Of a stretch of 64,000 bases of DNA, positions 2,518-54,560 are shown piece by piece (position 1 is the stretch's first letter; every line of letters begins with the position of its first letter). This DNA comes from Dactylococcopsis salina PCC 8305. GTDB taxonomy: Bacteria > Cyanobacteriota > Cyanobacteriia > Cyanobacteriales > Rubidibacteraceae. The stretch covers positions 3,121,840-3,185,839 of the forward strand of contig NC_019780.1 in the NCBI RefSeq assembly GCF_000317615.1. The letters are read 5' to 3'. A model generated the notes under the pieces. That model was not told the DNA's origin. It made no database searches and was given only the letters and a program-made list of their open reading frames with translations. Both the position numbers and the translations under genes were made by a program.

Positions 2518-3843
2518 ATGACAACCTCTCCTAAAATTATTGTTCTTGATGATGACCCCACAGGTTCTCAAACCGTACATAGTTGTTTACTCTTAATGCA
2601 GTGGGACATAGAAACCTTACGCATCGGACTCCAAGATGAGGTTTCTATCTTCTTTATTCTCACCAACACCCGCGCCTTATCTCCCGAAGACGCAACCCAA
2701 CGGACGCGAGAAGTCTGTCAAAACCTAAAAACTGCACTAACCACAGAAAACATCACCGACTTTTTAGTCGTCAGTCGGTCAGACTCCACACTGCGTGGAC
2801 ATTATCCCCTCGAAACCGATGTTATCGCCGCCGAACTCGGACCCTTTGACGCACACTTCTTAACCCCTGCATTTTTTGAAGGCGGACGCATCACTCGCGA
2901 CAGCATCCATTACATTGTTTCCGAAGCGGGAGAAACTCCTGTTCATCAAACCGAGTTTGCCAAAGACTCTGTTTTCGGTTACTCCCATAGTTACCTTCCC
3001 GACTATGTAGAAGAGAAGACCAACGGAAAAATTAAAGCCAACCAAGTGGAATGCTTAACCCTCCATGATATTCGTCAAGGAACAAAAGACCGTTTGCTTC
3101 AGCTAAAAAATAATCAATGTGTCGCAGTAGATGGAGAAACCCAAAGCGACTTAGACCGTTTCGCATCTGATGTTCTCGCAGCAACACAAGAGGGAAAACG
3201 CTTTTTATTCCGTAGTGCCGCCAGTTTATTAACTTCTCTCGCGCAACTGGGAAAACAACCCATTCCTCCTGAAGAAATGGGGAAATATGACGCAACACCT
3301 AAACCAGGGGTGGTGTTAGTGGGGTCTCATGTGAAGAAGTCAACCGCGCAACTTTACGCATTGTTAGAAGAAGCAACAGTGACAGGAATAGAAGTAGATG
3401 TGAAACGGTTGCGAGACTTTCCAGAGACAAGAGACCAACAGTTAACAGAAATTTTGCAAAGCATTAAAGCCACTCATCAAAACCAACAAACACCTGTTAT
3501 TTATACCAGCCGTGAGGAATTACAATTTAAGAATACCCAAGAACGTTTAAACTTTGGGGTAAAAGTTTCGTCCTTTTTAATGGATATTGTCCGCAGACTT
3601 CCTTCTGATATTAGCTTTCTTATCAGTAAAGGGGGAATTACCTCTAACGATGTCTTGAGTGATGGGTTAAGATTACAATCAGCACGACTTTTAGGACAAA
3701 TTCTTGCGGGTTGTTCTTTAGTTCGCAGTCCTGAAACTCATCCCCAGTTTCCGAATCTTCCAGTGGTTTTATTTCCTGGAAATGTCGGAGACAATCAAGG
3801 TTTAGTTACTGCTTACCGTCGCTTAAATAAACATCATAATTAA
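2518..3843 (+). CDS. Four-carbon acid sugar kinase family protein (DUF1537)
   Basis: 441-residue member of the DUF1537 kinase family, whose characterised members phosphorylate four-carbon acid sugars such as threonate, erythronate or their 2-oxo forms. The N-terminal domain starts with VLDDDPTGSQT, the family's substrate-binding loop, and has SRSDSTLRGHYP (~87-98). The C-terminal nucleotide-binding domain has FLISKGGITSNDVL (~363-376) and ends with LFPGNVGDNQG (~423-433), both characteristic. Full length, no lesions. None of the usual partner genes (dehydrogenase, isomerase/aldolase, transporter) is nearby, so the physiological substrate is not indicated. The stop codon is immediately followed by a six-copy tandem repeat. 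Confidence 0.85.
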   Translation: MTTSPKIIVLDDDPTGSQTVHSCLLLMQWDIETLRIGLQDEVSIFFILTNTRALSPEDATQRTREVCQNLKTALTTENITDFLVVSRSDSTLRGHYPLETDVIAAELGPFDAHFLTPAFFEGGRITRDSIHYIVSEAGETPVHQTEFAKDSVFGYSHSYLPDYVEEKTNGKIKANQVECLTLHDIRQGTKDRLLQLKNNQCVAVDGETQSDLDRFASDVLAATQEGKRFLFRSAASLLTSLAQLGKQPIPPEEMGKYDATPKPGVVLVGSHVKKSTAQLYALLEEATVTGIEVDVKRLRDFPETRDQQLTEILQSIKATHQNQQTPVIYTSREELQFKNTQERLNFGVKVSSFLMDIVRRLPSDISFLISKGGITSNDVLSDGLRLQSARLLGQILAGCSLVRSPETHPQFPNLPVVLFPGNVGDNQGLVTAYRRLNKHHN

Positions 3844-4250
3844 CGTAGGTTGGGTGTAACCCAACATTCAATTTAATTTACAGTAAACATCATAATTAAC
3901 GTAGGTTGGGTGTAACCCAACATTCAATTTAATTTACAGTAAACATCATAATTAACGTAGGTTGGGTGTAACCCAACATTCAATTTAATTTACAGTAAAC
4001 ATCATAATTAACGTAGGTTGGGTGTAACCCAACATTCAATTTAATTTACAGTAAACATCATAATTAACGTAGGTTGGGTGTAACCCAACATTCGATTTAA
4101 TTTACAGTAAACATCATAATTAACGTAGGTTGGGTGTAACCCAACATTCGATTTAATTTACAGTGACCAGTGATTGATGTTGGGTTTCGTAAACTCCACC
4201 CAACCTACACCTGATTGATGTTGGGTTTCGTAAACTCCACCCAACCTACA
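3844..4250. repeat. Tandem array of the GTAGGTTGGGT hairpin repeat
   Basis: Six head-to-tail copies of a 56-bp unit begin at 3844, 3900, 3956, 4012, 4068 and 4124. Each contains GTAGGTTGGGTG, a short loop and the complementary ACCCAAC, followed by an AT-rich spacer. Copies five and six share a one-base change (TTCGATT instead of TTCAATT). Two copies of a related unit in opposite orientation follow (about 4173-4250). The array begins right after the stop codon of the DUF1537 gene. No gene is visible here. Confidence 0.95.
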
Positions 4251-9495: not shown

Positions 9496-9520
9496 TTGGT
9501 TCTATTCCTCCTTTTATTTT

Positions 9521-9920
9521 GCCCCCTAGCCCCCAAGTTTGGGGGGATTTTTGATTTTGCCCCCTAGCCCCCAAGTTTGGGGGATTTTTGATTTTGCCCC
9601 CTAGCCCCCAAGTTTGGGGGATTTTTGATTTTGCCCCCTAGCCCCCAAGTTTGGGGGGATTTTTGATTTTACCCCCTAGCCCCCAAGTTTGGGGGGATTT
9701 TTGATTTTGCCCCCTAGCCCCCAAGTTTGGGGGGATTTTTGATTTTGCCCCCTAGCCCCCAAGTTTGGGGGGATTTTTGATTTTGCCCCCTAGCCCCCAA
9801 GTTTGGGGGGATTTTTGATTTTGCCCCCTAGCCCCCAAGTTTGGGGGGATTTTTGATTTTACCCCCTAGCCCCCAAGTTTGGGGGGATTTTTGATTTTGC
9901 CCCCTAGCCCCCCTTCGTAA
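9521..9920. repeat. Eleven-copy 37/38-bp C-rich tandem array
   Basis: Units start at 9521, 9559, 9596, 9633, 9671, 9709, 9747, 9785, 9823, 9861 and 9899. Each reads GCCCCCTAGCCCCCAAG-TTT-GGGGGG then ATTTTTGATTTT, a C-run/G-run hairpin plus T-rich spacer. Variation is limited to a 5- or 6-G run and G/A at the unit's first base. The last unit is a different hairpin whose loop is split by a MITE. It starts 26 bases upstream of the trhO start codon, so it occupies that gene's promoter region. Confidence 0.95.
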
Positions 9921-10151
9921 GCAGGGCTGTTTCATTCTCGGGGTCAAAATTGGCAGCGATTGCGCTCCGCGCACCGATGCGAAGCATCGATCGCCTGAAC
10001 CTCTTACGGTACGTTCGATCGAGACGTTTTTCCTACTTTTTGGCTTTTTCATAAGAAAAAAGAGTCCTGAAATCTCCCCCATCTCCCTTGTCTCCCTTGT
10101 CTCCCCCATCTCCCTACCTCCCTTAATTTTAAAAGAATGAAACAGCCCTGC
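9921..10151. mobile_element. MITE, copy 1 (231 bp) with 9-bp target duplication
   Basis: Bounded by inverted termini GCAGGGCTGTTTCATTCT and its complement. Flanked by an exact 9-bp direct repeat CCTTCGTAA (9912-9920 and 10152-10160). No coding frame. Inside are a short GC-rich hairpin (~9957-9993) absent from copy 2, a CGATCG-rich segment and a run of CTCCC-type microsatellite. Its body matches the reverse complement of the element at 40958-41132. A non-autonomous transposon mobilised by an unseen DDE transposase is the simplest reading. Confidence 0.9.
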
Positions 10152-10194
10152 CCTTCGTAAGGGGGGAAAGAAGACGGGTTTCTTTAATCATTCA

Positions 10195-32621: not shown

Positions 32622-33890
32622 TTAATCTTGGAATACTAATTCTAATCGGTTTTGAGACTCTTTCAAGGCTTGTTCTGGCGTTTTCTTATCTAATAAACTC
32701 GCTTCGATCGCCCGCCCAAAATTTTCAGATAAACGGCTGTAATTAGCAATAATCGGACGAACTTTCGCCACCTTCATCTGTTCTAAAAATACCTCTAAAA
32801 CTGGATTGTCTTCTACAAATTGCTGATACTTTTCACTGTTTTGAGACTTAACATTAATCGGCAAATAACCCGTCCTTAGCGCCCATTCTGTCTGAAACTT
32901 CTCGCTTAAAACATATTCTAAAAATTGAAAACAGGCTTTTTCTCGTTCAGAATTCGTCTTAAAAACAAATAAATTTTCCCCACCAACAACCGCCGCTGAT
33001 TGCGCTTTTTGGGGAAAGGGAAACACATCATAATCAATATCCATTCCCTGTAATTGTCCCAACGTCCAGGGTCCTGTCACTTGCATCGCCGCGCGTCCTG
33101 ACAAAAAATTATCTAACTCATATCCTCTTTCTGGTGCTGATAAAGTTGCCCAATTTTTATTAACTAAATTTGCCCCAAAATTTAAAGCAGCAATTGTCCC
33201 TTCATTAACTAAATTAGGCTGTTGATTTTGGTTTAATAATTCCCCCTTAGCACTGTAAACAAAAGGAAGCCAAGTGAACACAGTCCACTCTCCTTTTCCT
33301 AACGATAAAAACATTCCATATTGGTCAATTAAACCATCCTGATCAAAATCTTGAGTTAATTTTTCGGCAGTTGCTTCTAACTCTTCCCAAGTTTCGGGAG
33401 TGCGTTCAATTCCCGCTTTTTCAAACAAAGAAGGACGATAAAAGATGCCAGCGTTATTAGTAGCAAAAGGAATCGACCAAATGCGATCGTTTAATTCCAT
33501 GCTTTCCAATAAAATCGGATCAATTTCCTCTTTTAATGGGGATCGATCGAGCCAATCATCTAAAGGACGAATCGCATCTAAGGCAACTAATTGACCCGTT
33601 AATTGTGGCACAAACCAAAGCATATCGGGAGGAACATCTCCCACAACGGCTGTTAAAATTTTCGGTAATTGTCCGTCAGGTTGACCAATATAAATCGCTT
33701 CTAATTCAACGTCTTGATGAGTTTGGTTAAAATCATTTACTAAGTCTTGAAATACCTCTCGATTAGCAGGGGGATTAATGCCATGCCAAAGGGTTAATTT
33801 AGTAATATTGGGGTCAGGATTTGTATTATTAACAGCGCTACAACTGGTAATCAATAAACTGATGATTAAGGCAATCAGATTAATGAGAAT
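32622..33890 (-). CDS. Sugar-type ABC transporter substrate-binding lipoprotein (start codon eroded)
   Basis: Extracellular family 1 binding protein of ~410-422 residues: LTLWHGINPPANREVFQDLVNDFNQTH-type N-terminus, GQPDGQLPKILTAVVGDVPPD region (within ~57-77) and the PW-containing VTGPWTLGQLQ (~259-269). The frame is open upstream of the only standard start, TTG 33854. Codons from 33890 spell a hydrophobic ILINLIALIISLLITSC, a clear lipoprotein signal peptide with lipobox ITSC. Starting at TTG 33854 would remove it. The only options are ATT 33890, preceded by GGGAGG, or CTG 33878, so the original ATG seems to have been lost next to a tandem repeat. No permease genes adjoin. Confidence 0.8.
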   Translation of the reverse strand: MLINLIALIISLLITSCSAVNNTNPDPNITKLTLWHGINPPANREVFQDLVNDFNQTHQDVELEAIYIGQPDGQLPKILTAVVGDVPPDMLWFVPQLTGQLVALDAIRPLDDWLDRSPLKEEIDPILLESMELNDRIWSIPFATNNAGIFYRPSLFEKAGIERTPETWEELEATAEKLTQDFDQDGLIDQYGMFLSLGKGEWTVFTWLPFVYSAKGELLNQNQQPNLVNEGTIAALNFGANLVNKNWATLSAPERGYELDNFLSGRAAMQVTGPWTLGQLQGMDIDYDVFPFPQKAQSAAVVGGENLFVFKTNSEREKACFQFLEYVLSEKFQTEWALRTGYLPINVKSQNSEKYQQFVEDNPVLEVFLEQMKVAKVRPIIANYSRLSENFGRAIEASLLDKKTPEQALKESQNRLELVFQD

Positions 33891-33897
33891 TACGCCT

Positions 33898-34080
33898 CCC
33901 CTCTTCTTTAAAAGGGGTTGGGGTGAATCAGAAATGATAATTACCTCTCCCCCCTTATTTAAGGGGGGTTGGGGTGAATCAGAAATGATAATTACCTCTC
34001 CCCCCTTATTTAAAAGGGGTTGGGGTGAATCAGAAATGAGAATTACCTCTCCCCCCCTTATTTAAGGGGGGTTGGGGGGG
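33898..34080. repeat. 51-bp tandem array abutting the binding-protein gene start
   Basis: GAATCAGAAATGATAATTACC recurs with period 51 (units anchored at 33925, 33976 and 34027), each with a CCCCCCTTATTTAA...GGGG hairpin. The fourth hairpin ends at ~34078. It reaches to within 8 bases of the ATT codon of the lipoprotein signal peptide on the minus strand. Confidence 0.9.
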
Positions 34081-34145
34081 ATCAAATATTAGGTTAATTT
34101 TAGAAGCAATGAAAGAGAAAACAGTTTTATGAGTTGTCATGGGGA

Positions 34146-40530: not shown

Positions 40531-41387
40531 TTAAGGTTTAGGAAACAGTGGAATGCCCCCAAACCCCCAAATCTGGGGGCTTAAAGTTTCTACTTTTTAC
40601 AAATCATTGATCATTCCTTAAGGTTTAGGAAACAGTGGAATGCCCCCAAACCCCCAAAATCTGGGGGCTTAAAGTTTCTACTTTTTACAAATCATTGATC
40701 ATTGTTATAGCAGTTCTATATCATTTGTAAAAAGTTGATTATGGAAGCCCCCCAAAGTTGGGGGGTTGGGGGGCGTGCATATTTACAAATCATTGATCAT
40801 TGTTATAGCAGTTCTATATCATTTGTAAAAAGTTGATTATGGAAGCCCCCCAAAGTTGGGGGGTTGGGGGGCGTGCATATTTACAAATCATTGATCATTG
40901 TTATAGCAGTTCTATATCATTTGTAAAAAGTTGATTATGGAAGCCCCCCAAAGTTGGGCAGGGCTGTTTCATTCTATTTTTTTGCTTGTTCCAGATGTTA
41001 GGAATAACCGGGGTTTTACGGCTTTTTTCTTATGAATAAGTCAAAAAGTAAGAAAAAGCGTTCGATCGAACGTACAATAAGGGGTTCAGGCGATCGCATT
41101 CAATTTTGACCCCGAGAATGAAACAGCCCTGCCAAAGTTGGGGGGTTGGGGGGCGTGCATATTTACAAATCATTGATCATTGTTATAGCAGTTCTATATC
41201 ATTTGTAAAAAGTTGATTATGGAAGCCCCCCAAAGTTGGGGGGTTGGGGGGCGTGCATATTCACAAATCATTGATCATTGTTATAGCAGTTCTATATCAT
41301 TTGTAAAAAGTTGATTATGGAAGCCCCCCAAAGTTGGGGGGTTGGGGGGCGTGCATATTTACAAATCATTGATCATTGTTATAAATT
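40531..41387. repeat. Tandem palindromic arrays: two ~87-bp and five 98-bp units, split by a MITE
   Basis: Two units of 87-88 bases (from 40531 and 40618) carry TTAAGGTTTAGGAAACAGTG and a CCCCCAAACCCCC/GGGGG hairpin. They are followed by 98-base units anchored on GTTATAGCAGTTCTATATC at 40704, 40802, 40900, 41182 and 41280, with a partial end at 41378. Each 98-base unit holds GCCCCCCAAAGTTGGGGGG and arms TCATTTGTAAAAAG / TTTACAAATCA. The 282-base spacing between 40900 and 41182 is 98 plus 184, exactly the MITE and its duplication. Nothing coding. Confidence 0.95.
40958..41132. mobile_element. MITE, copy 2 (175 bp) with 9-bp target duplication
   Basis: Termini GCAGGGCTGTTTCATTCT and its complement, flanked by direct repeats CAAAGTTGG (40949-40957 and 41133-41141). 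The inside is non-coding, with ACGTTCGATCG-type and GAATAAGTCAAAAAG segments that align with the reverse complement of copy 1. The 184-base excess over the array period confirms the boundaries. It sits in the loop of a CCCCCC/GGGGGG hairpin. Confidence 0.95.
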
Positions 41388-50573: not shown

Positions 50574-52475
50574 ATGAGCCAAATTAGGTATAAATGTGAT
50601 GCTCGGACAAAGACCTTCTTAATGCTCTGGTTAGGCTTTGGATTTAATCTCATGGCTGAGACGGAGTGGAATCAAATTGACTGGAAGGAGGTTGAAATAC
50701 GAGTGTTTAAGCTCCAAAAGCGGATTTATCGAGCTTCTCAAAGTGGTGACGTGGCTAGAGTTCACAAACTCCAAAAATTATTGTTACGGTCTTGGTGCGC
50801 CAAACTCCTAGCGGTACGGCGCATTTCGCAGGATAATCAGGGTAAAAATACCGCAGGGATAGATGGAGTGAAAAGCCTAAGTCCTAAACAACGGTTAAGC
50901 CTTGCAGAAAGCCTAACTCTTACAGGGAAAGGTGAATCCTTAAGACGGGTCTGGATTCCAAAACCAGGTCGCAAAGAAAAACGTGGCTTGGGTATTCCAG
51001 TAATGGAAGACCGTGCGAGGCAAGCACTCCTAAAATTGGCTTTAGAACCAGAATGGGAGGCTAAATTTGAGCCAAATTCGTACGGATTCAGACCAGGACG
51101 TTCTTGCCATGATGCTGGTGAAGCAATATACAAAGCGATTAATCTGAAACCTAAATGGGTTTTAGATGCTGATATTTCAAAATGCTTCGACCGCATAAAT
51201 CACAACGTTCTCTTACAAAAATTAAATACAACCCCGATCATGGCTCGACAAATTCGAGCTTGGTTGAAATCTGGGGTCTTAGATAGAGGTGATTGGATGC
51301 CAACAAATGAAGGGACACCACAAGGAGGGGTAATTAGTCCATTATTGGCAAATATAGCCCTACATGGACTTGAGGAGTACATTAAACAATGGACTGAAAC
51401 TTGGAAAGGACGAAAAGAGAAAAATCGAAAAAGTATCTCCCTTATCAGGTATGCAGATGATTTCGTTGTTCTCCATAAAGATAAATCCATCATCCAACAA
51501 GCAAAAATGCTGATTGAACAGTGGTTACATGGCTTAGGCTTAGAAATAAGCGAGAGCAAGACGAGAGTTTGCCACACCTTGCATGAAACGGATGAAACGA
51601 AAGCAGGGTTTGACTTTCTTGGATGGAATATCCGACAATACAAAGTCGGGAAACATCATTCGGGAAAAACAGCACATAAGGAAATTCTCGGATTCAAAAC
51701 AATAATTAAACCTAGCGACAAGAATATAAAAACACATTATGAAAAGATTGTTGAAGCGTTAGATTCAATGAGAGGTAAATCCCAAGAGGTTATCATTGAT
51801 AAACTTAACCCCATAATTAGGGGTTGGTGCAGCTATCACAAAACAGTCTGCTCTAAAGAAACGTTCCAACACATAGACCATCTAGTCTATAACAAATTAA
51901 ATCGCTGGATAAAACGCCGTCATCCTAACAAAACCCCTAAATGGTGTAAAGAAAGATACTTTCATTTGACTAAGGAGAAAGATTTAGCAAAAGAAGATAG
52001 AAAAGATAAATGGGTCTTCTCAACCCCTTCTGATGTACCAAATTCTCCTGTTGCGGGTACGCACGAACTGTGGAAACACGCATGGACACCAATTGAAAGA
52101 CATATAAAAATCGAGGGTACGAGGTCTCCTTTCGATGGAGATTGGCGGTACTGGAGTAAACGTCGGGGTGAATACCCTGGTATATCTAAAAGGGTCGCTA
52201 CCCTGATGAAACGTCAGGAAGGCAAATGTACCCGTTGTGGACTTTACGTTAAGGATGAAGATGTAGTGGAGGTTGACCACATCGTCCCTAAAGCTGAGGG
52301 GGGCAAAGACCATTACAAGAATTTACAGTTACTTCATCGTCATTGTCACCATCAGAAAACTGCCGAAGACCGACAACGACAAATGGATAATAAGGGACAA
52401 AAAGAAGCCCAAAAGAAAACCAAAAAAGGTCGTAAATCGGAAACTAAGCAGAGGAGTTCTGTTAGAACAGCGTAG
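50574..52475 (+). CDS. ltrA: Group II intron reverse transcriptase/maturase with HNH endonuclease
   Basis: Up to 633 residues. RT domain: fingers KSLSPKQRL and RRVWIPKPGRKEKRGLGIP, PNSYGFRPGRSCHDA (~163-177), GTPQGGVISPLLANIAL (~247-263) and catalytic IRYADDFVVLHKD (~287-299). Domain X/maturase: GWCSYHKTVC and the basic RWIKRRHPNKTPKW. C-terminal HNH: CTRCGLYV, VDHIVPKAEGG and LLHRHCHHQK (~545-600). Everything needed for retrohoming is intact. ATG 50574 or, more like the family, ATG 50652 (MAETEWNQIDWK) is the start. A basic tail of ~35 residues follows. Confidence 0.93.
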   Translation: MSQIRYKCDARTKTFLMLWLGFGFNLMAETEWNQIDWKEVEIRVFKLQKRIYRASQSGDVARVHKLQKLLLRSWCAKLLAVRRISQDNQGKNTAGIDGVKSLSPKQRLSLAESLTLTGKGESLRRVWIPKPGRKEKRGLGIPVMEDRARQALLKLALEPEWEAKFEPNSYGFRPGRSCHDAGEAIYKAINLKPKWVLDADISKCFDRINHNVLLQKLNTTPIMARQIRAWLKSGVLDRGDWMPTNEGTPQGGVISPLLANIALHGLEEYIKQWTETWKGRKEKNRKSISLIRYADDFVVLHKDKSIIQQAKMLIEQWLHGLGLEISESKTRVCHTLHETDETKAGFDFLGWNIRQYKVGKHHSGKTAHKEILGFKTIIKPSDKNIKTHYEKIVEALDSMRGKSQEVIIDKLNPIIRGWCSYHKTVCSKETFQHIDHLVYNKLNRWIKRRHPNKTPKWCKERYFHLTKEKDLAKEDRKDKWVFSTPSDVPNSPVAGTHELWKHAWTPIERHIKIEGTRSPFDGDWRYWSKRRGEYPGISKRVATLMKRQEGKCTRCGLYVKDEDVVEVDHIVPKAEGGKDHYKNLQLLHRHCHHQKTAEDRQRQMDNKGQKEAQKKTKKGRKSETKQRSSVRTA

Positions 52476-52484
52476 TTTGGAGAG

Positions 52485-52518
52485 GAGCGGTATGATGGGA
52501 AACTATCACGTACCGTTC
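52485..52518 (+). ncRNA. Group II intron domain V
   Basis: 34 nt starting GAGCGGTATGATGGGAAACT and ending TACCGTTC. Ends pair as GAGCGGTA / TACCGTTC with a bulge; the GAAA tetraloop is present. Lies 9 bases after the maturase stop. Confidence 0.93.
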
Positions 52519-52559
52519 TGAAGCCGAGTCAAGAGGGCGACCTCTTGACTTAGGTTAAC

Positions 52560-54398: not shown

Positions 54399-54440
54399 TT
54401 TTTCCTCTAAATTTTGATCTTGTTAATGATCTTATCTAAT

Positions 54441-54560
54441 TCGTCCCCCTTACCCCCAAGTTTGGGAGGTTCGCCCCCTTACCCCCAAGTTTGGGGGGAT
54501 TCGCCCCCTTACCCCCAAGTTTGGGAGGTTCGCCCCCTTACCCCCAAGTTTGGGGGGATT
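54441..54560. repeat. Four-copy 29/30-bp C-rich tandem array
   Basis: TTCGCCCCCTTACCCCCAAG plus TTTGGGAGG or TTTGGGGGGA, starting at 54441 (first copy TTCGTCCCCC), 54471, 54501 and 54530. The array ends at the coaE stop codon (TAA 54560-54562). Confidence 0.92.

Follow-up and report, generated by a model that had tools for sequence, protein, structure and literature searches.

Insertion of MITEs and an ISAs1-family insertion sequence at the centre of C-tract/G-tract palindromes in the cyanobacterium Dactylococcopsis salina

The targets of the insertion sequences (ISs) IS186 and IS231A consist of G/C blocks around a 5-7-bp spacer, in the order G then C. Members of the ISAs1 family generate target duplications of 8-10 bp, and to our knowledge the family is not defined by a strict C/G-tract target. 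Nezha is a cyanobacterial MITE made of short repeats with inverted ends and present in high copy number. ISs that target palindromes or REPs include IS1397, ISKpn1 and ISPsy8 (IS3 family), IS621, ISPa11 and ISPpu9/10 (IS110) and ISRm22 (IS4) (Tobes and Pareja 2006, PMC1525189). Palindrome targeting is published there for the IS3, IS110, IS4, IS256 and IS5 families, and the name ISAs1 is absent from the text of that article. Most REPs are described as a GTAG or CGTC tag beside a 20-40-nt palindrome (PMC3733652). Intrastrand triplex motifs are three-tract repeats (C-C-G or C-G-G) that occur in many copies and are abundant in certain cyanobacteria (Holder 2015, PMC4666352). There they are defined by three tracts, a stem of 6-15 nt and loops of 1-6 nt, and the E. 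coli motif is said by the authors to have no transposases. The authors who described the MITEs of Anabaena sp. 90 saw no evident similarity of the MITE ends to resident ISs (PMC3542288).

We analysed a stretch of 64,000 nt of the D. salina genome, hereafter the window, in which a 175-bp MITE (copy 2) interrupts one unit of a 98-bp tandem array (Table 1). When the interrupted unit is read without the insert, it has 98 bp and the same sequence as units 1, 2 and 5, and unit 4 departs from them by a single base change. The five occurrences of a 19-nt unit anchor are spaced by 98, 98, 282 and 98, and exact GTTATA anchors are found at 40704, 40802, 40900, 41182, 41280 and 41378. A reading made beforehand from the letters alone (the sequence-only reading) had explained the 282-base interval as one 98-base period plus a 175-bp element and its 9-bp duplication, and this arithmetic is exact. 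The terminal inverted repeats of copy 2 are perfect over 18 bp, and its boundaries can slide by one base because the flank and the end share G/C. In the single-strand minimum-energy fold of the site, the C-tract pairs with the distal G-tract, not with the adjacent one.

Table 1. Coordinates of the array, the two MITE copies and their flanking sequences in the window
Feature	Position	Strand	Remarks
98-bp tandem array, five units	40703..41376	+	TRF period 98; unit comparison
Array unit 1	40703-40800		
Array unit 2	40801-40898		
Array unit 3	40899-41180		interrupted
Array unit 4	41181-41278		
Array unit 5	41279-41376		
Copy 2, 175-bp MITE	40958..41132	-	strand relative to copy 1
Copy 2 terminal inverted repeat, 18 bp	40958..40975	+	GCAGGGCTGTTTCATTCT
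Copy 2 terminal inverted repeat, 18 bp	41115..41132	-	
Copy 2 left target duplication, 9 bp	40949..40957	none	CAAAGTTGG
Copy 2 right target duplication, 9 bp	41133..41141	none	CAAAGTTGG
C-tract half of the palindrome interrupted by copy 2	40944..40949	+	
G-tract half of the palindrome interrupted by copy 2	41140..41145	+	further G-tract at 41148-41153
Copy 1, related 231-bp MITE	9921..10151	+	same ends as copy 2
Copy 1 target duplication	9912-9920 and 10152-10160		CCTTCGTAA, within CCCCCC-TTCGTAA-GGGGGG

The related MITE of the window, copy 1, matches the opposite strand of copy 2 over 32 bp of one end (100% identity) and over a 76-bp inner block (89%). The opposite orientation ascribed earlier to the two elements is borne out by these blocks on the other strand, and calling them copies is fair, as the inner block is common to both beyond the ends. 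The window is also rich in tandem arrays, several of them around C-run/G-run palindromes (for example 3828-4250, 9512-9912, 33873-34088 and 54439-54560), and it contains a group II intron at 50574-52559, the catalytic RNA of which matches at 52482-52559, after a 633-aa ORF (50574-52475).

A further genome copy, at 3574821-3574998, agrees with copy 2 at every position over 178 bp, an identity that suggests a recent move. Of the five near-identical array units a single one carries the insert, and the element has this identical counterpart elsewhere; insertion therefore clearly came after unit formation, and it likely came after formation of the array. The earlier claim that insertion followed amplification thus agrees with the data, the units being 0-1 differences apart, but it falls short of proof, since uninterrupted units may have been gained or lost after the insertion and the unit number may have changed. 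In G150, the one genome of the same genus compared at this place, both neighbouring genes are kept and the array is absent between them. The 98-bp unit stems from a dispersed repeat, amplified locally to form the array: among the matches listed, 44 lie outside the array and its upstream neighbour, most of them partial and 74-97% identical. Insertions into arrays are common in the genome, given this dispersed repeat unit and the 27 of 57 insertions described below that have a flank recurring within 700 bp.

Genome-wide, the 17-bp end of these elements occurs 127 times at up to two mismatches (63 forward and 64 reverse, 3.78-Mb genome), and the reversed pattern used as control gave no match, so that the occurrences are not due to chance. 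By pairing ends with up to three mismatches each, in loci that hold 121 of the 127 ends (the remaining six are outside the loci examined, and ten unpaired ends were left out), we obtained 57 elements. They include 22 of 175 bp, eight of 200 bp, others of various short lengths and eight of 1201-1203 bp. The latter are copies of an IS, listed at 100% identity, which is an indirect sign of transposition activity; the transposase frame is uninterrupted in six of them and broken in two. Against the NCBIfam ISAs1 model NF033564 the transposase scores 257.1 bits (cut-off 70, E value 2e-76), and it contains the Pfam domains DDE_Tnp_1_assoc and DDE_Tnp_1. Together with the inverted 17-bp ends and duplications mostly of 8-10 bp, these features are those of the ISAs1 family. 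One further transposase match of the same Pfam was detected in the genome outside the IS copies, and a PDB sequence search returned only weak matches, to an unrelated protein. A Halothece MAG encodes a transposase that is 81% identical; judged by this protein, the organism is a cyanobacterium near Halothece.

Copy 2 is a non-autonomous MITE: it has 175 bp, is present in multiple copies, shares its 17-bp ends with a resident IS and is flanked by a target duplication. From their common ends, the MITEs are most likely moved in trans by the transposase of the ISAs1-family IS. Like the MITEs of Anabaena sp. 90, these elements are short, with inverted ends and a high copy number; unlike them, they come with an IS that has the same ends and with a defined target (PMC3542288). 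In addition, a 408-bp element at 3550187-3550594 has three segments in common with the full IS and has the appearance of an intermediate on the way from IS to MITE, formed by internal deletion.

The 49 elements with an exact duplication (7-11 bp, out of 57) enabled us to define the target. With IS and MITEs counted together, there are 28 duplications of 9 bp, 15 of 10, four of 8, one of 7 and one of 11 bp; the longest exact match was taken in each case, and G/C sharing may lengthen some. In 47 of the 49 elements, the centre of the duplication lies no more than 1.5 nt from the centre of a C4+/N5-8/G4+ palindrome. When the sites are aligned on the duplication centre, C is found at -7, -6 and -5 in 48, 48 and 47 of them and G at +5, +6 and +7 in 48 each, with variable loop bases. 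The two exceptions, at 870639 and 2871602, are situated between two G-tracts and two C-tracts. Since 47 distinct 24-nt sites were counted among the 49, the insertions are independent. The location of copies 1 and 2 in hairpin loops, as described from the window, is therefore both true and general. In six of the eight elements without exact duplication, a C-tract also stands to the left and a G-tract to the right; the elements at 1187379 and 3521874 do not fit this pattern. Among the six, near-duplications are found at 479660 (one mismatch) and 3678412 (two mismatches), and none at 3550187. In the other three (256366, 1583227 and 2442412), the two halves of the hairpin are clearly unlike each other (6-7 of 9 positions), as after recombination.

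Nearly all copies thus occupy a fixed place in an interspersed palindrome, as for ISs of the IS1397 or ISRm22 kind; nine ISRm22 copies lie in REPs and ISPsy8 inserts at the predicted symmetry axis of a hairpin (PMC1525189). In contrast with those systems, the loops vary here and the pair of C- and G-tracts is constant, and a large MITE population has the same habit. The sites do not look like REPs: 8 of 49 have a GTAG or CGTC tag, on either strand, at up to 20 nt from the centre, and no tag consensus emerged from the 49 aligned sites. A stable hairpin, GAGACGTTCCATGGAACGTCTC, recurs with variants between genes (sample loci L205-L224) and is absent among the 47 target palindromes.

We looked for similar sites in other genomes of the class. 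The 16-bp end with a 25-nt flank is present in 35 of 388 genomes, including D. salina. Among the matches listed, 134 foreign ends were collected from the 34 other genomes, subject to a ceiling of 10 per genome and to the presence of a base other than T at 25 nt ahead of the end, and a C-tract is close by at 62 of these 134. A two-sided view was obtained for 80 loci, drawn from 18 of the 34 genomes and accounting for 92 of the 134 end places; 25 of these loci were without partner end and one site was a duplicate, leaving 54 sites. As up to four mismatches were allowed in partner ends, some pairs without duplication may be false. A C4+ tract on the left with a G4+ tract on the right was found at 25 of the 54 sites, compared with 17 of 11,000 positions taken at random from these loci. 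This proportion flatters the class-wide trend, because a one-sided C-tract is present at only 6 of 35 end places in the 16 genomes outside the two-sided set. An exact duplication accompanies 26 of the foreign sites, and 12 of these fall in the motif.

Use of the motif differs between genomes. It is found at 6/6 sites in G150, of the same genus, 3/4 in G387, 2/8 in G300 and 2/5 in G323, and it is unused in G336 (0/3) and in G072 and G177 together (0/7), despite 105, 40 and 46 placements available in these three genomes, respectively. As the G072 and G177 elements have the same 16-bp end and skip the motif, the latter does not follow from the ends alone. Such palindromes are occupied at loci of Planktothrix (L121 and L147), Pseudanabaena biceps (L128) and Microcystis (L129), and two Trichodesmium sites (L154 and L166) have TCGCCC-ATAAGC-GGGCGA or similar, unlike a third (L146). 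No C/G pair was detected at the Gloeocapsa (L143), Spirirestis (L140) and Cyanomargarita (L150) loci or at some others. Strictness does not simply track transposase identity, with 0/3 for the 47% identical protein of G336 and 3/4 for that of G387, 45% identical over part of its length. Many of the related transposases are broken or split in two frames. Automatic end finding around 13 relatives gave usable ends for eight, with that of L128 shifted; those of L124-L126 and L268 look wrong, and L123 had none.

We consider it likely that the MITE is moved in trans by the ISAs1-family IS, with a symmetric C-tract/G-tract duplex motif as target. A transposase bound to two ends would pick a target with two inverted C4+/G4+ half-sites approximately 6-8 bp apart, and the ends would be joined at points staggered by some 9 bp (8-10) symmetrically around the dyad, thus giving rise to the target duplication. 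We infer that a symmetric transposase dimer reads the half-sites as double-stranded sequence or as C/G-tract duplex geometry, not as an extruded hairpin. The very many such palindromes, a large number of which are in intergenic tandem arrays, would offer a wide choice of insertion sites at which an element probably does little harm in most cases.

The sequence-only reading had proposed that the transposase recognizes secondary structure. It might bind a non-B structure, namely an extruded hairpin or cruciform or a C-C-G/C-G-G intrastrand triplex, and this rival is unlikely but still live, as none of the strict targets lacks palindromic symmetry and sequence and structure are therefore confounded at the 47 used sites. 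These sites are cut at the dyad, with longer stems favoured (at least 6 bp in 34/47 targets and 36/82 background palindromes, P=0.002) and loops of 6-8 nt in 46/47 targets versus 59/82; both preferences would equally suit a structure reader. Triplex potential, in the form of a third tract, is present in 44/47 targets, but it is no commoner than in a stem- and loop-matched background (50/53), and the third tract is therefore unsupported as an extra requirement. The C-C-G/C-G-G repeats of D. salina bear a resemblance to the published triplex motifs; the latter are a target sequence and not a mobile element, and their 1-6-nt loop limit excludes many of the targets, with loops of 7-8 nt in 27/47 (PMC4666352).

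As background we sampled 20 evenly spaced 20-kb stretches of the genome, 400 kb in total, counting array units separately unless marked collapsed. After collapsing arrays, 133 intergenic hairpins equalled or exceeded the weakest target in stability, 57 with C-runs and 76 without, and yet all 47 hits are in the C-run/G-run class (P=5e-18). The sample contains 124 C5/G5 palindromes (61 array-collapsed) and 45 G5/C5 palindromes (14 collapsed), and none of the 47 hits is in a G-run/C-run palindrome (P=1e-4 array-collapsed, 1e-6 raw). The two exceptions of the D. salina set lie between like tracts, and the 14 foreign off-motif sites with a duplication show no extra palindromy: their stems are of 1-5 bp, 12 of them of 1-4 bp, close to the random distribution. 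On the basis of the hairpin surveys and of the foreign-site stems, we rejected structure recognition as the main account. It is rather doubtful, too, that an ISAs1-family transposase awaits C-C-G/C-G-G repeats leaving the B-form, as hairpin or intrastrand triplex, and inserts at their dyad; if it did, the insertions would reveal the sites at which these structures arise in vivo.

Three other explanations fare worse than recognition of the duplex motif. There might be no target preference, with selection removing all insertions other than those in dispensable intergenic hairpins, and 108 of the 124 C5/G5 palindromes of the sample are indeed outside ORFs of at least 100 aa. However, palindrome centres ±3 nt represent at most 1.2% of intergenic positions in the 400-kb sample, a centring within 1.5 nt is impossible from survival alone, and G387 has 17 motif placements in 7.4 Mb, yet three of its four scored sites are in the motif, which makes this explanation very improbable. 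Equally hard to credit is a host protein or process acting on palindromes, such as stalled replication, a terminator or a nucleoid protein, that attracts a transposase with little sequence taste. In a large-scale survey, ISAs1 elements are reported to be over-represented between convergent genes (PMC9208149), in agreement with such a factor, but the fixed cut at the dyad and the near-invariant C at -7 to -5 and G at +5 to +7 point to contacts with the transposase. Lastly, the spread of copies by recombination among existing hairpins without independent transposition, for which the eight elements without exact duplication and the three with differing hairpin halves might speak, is hardly believable in view of matching duplications around 49 elements at 47 different 24-nt sites.

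The choice of such palindromes as targets accounts for the position of these MITEs within the tandem arrays of the genome. No report of ISAs1 insertion into such palindromes was found in the open-licence literature, subscription papers and ISfinder being outside the scope of the search, and as far as that literature shows ISAs1 is the sixth IS family with palindrome targeting. IS186 and IS231A also have a symmetric G/C-block target that is cut between the blocks, but they belong to other IS families and the order of their blocks is opposite. The D. salina target is unusually clean and countable, the genome has a great number of unoccupied sites, and such a compact pair of tracts is easy to test in a laboratory strain. 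As the relatives differ in strictness, comparing them could reveal which residues determine the choice of target.

The related transposase of several genomes is encoded in two overlapping frames, with the split at about the same place, near residue 180. G387 has seven copies with this layout, and at locus L278 the seam coincides with an A8 run shortly past an FDSLHC stretch. A programmed frameshift or slippage is possible, judging from this arrangement.
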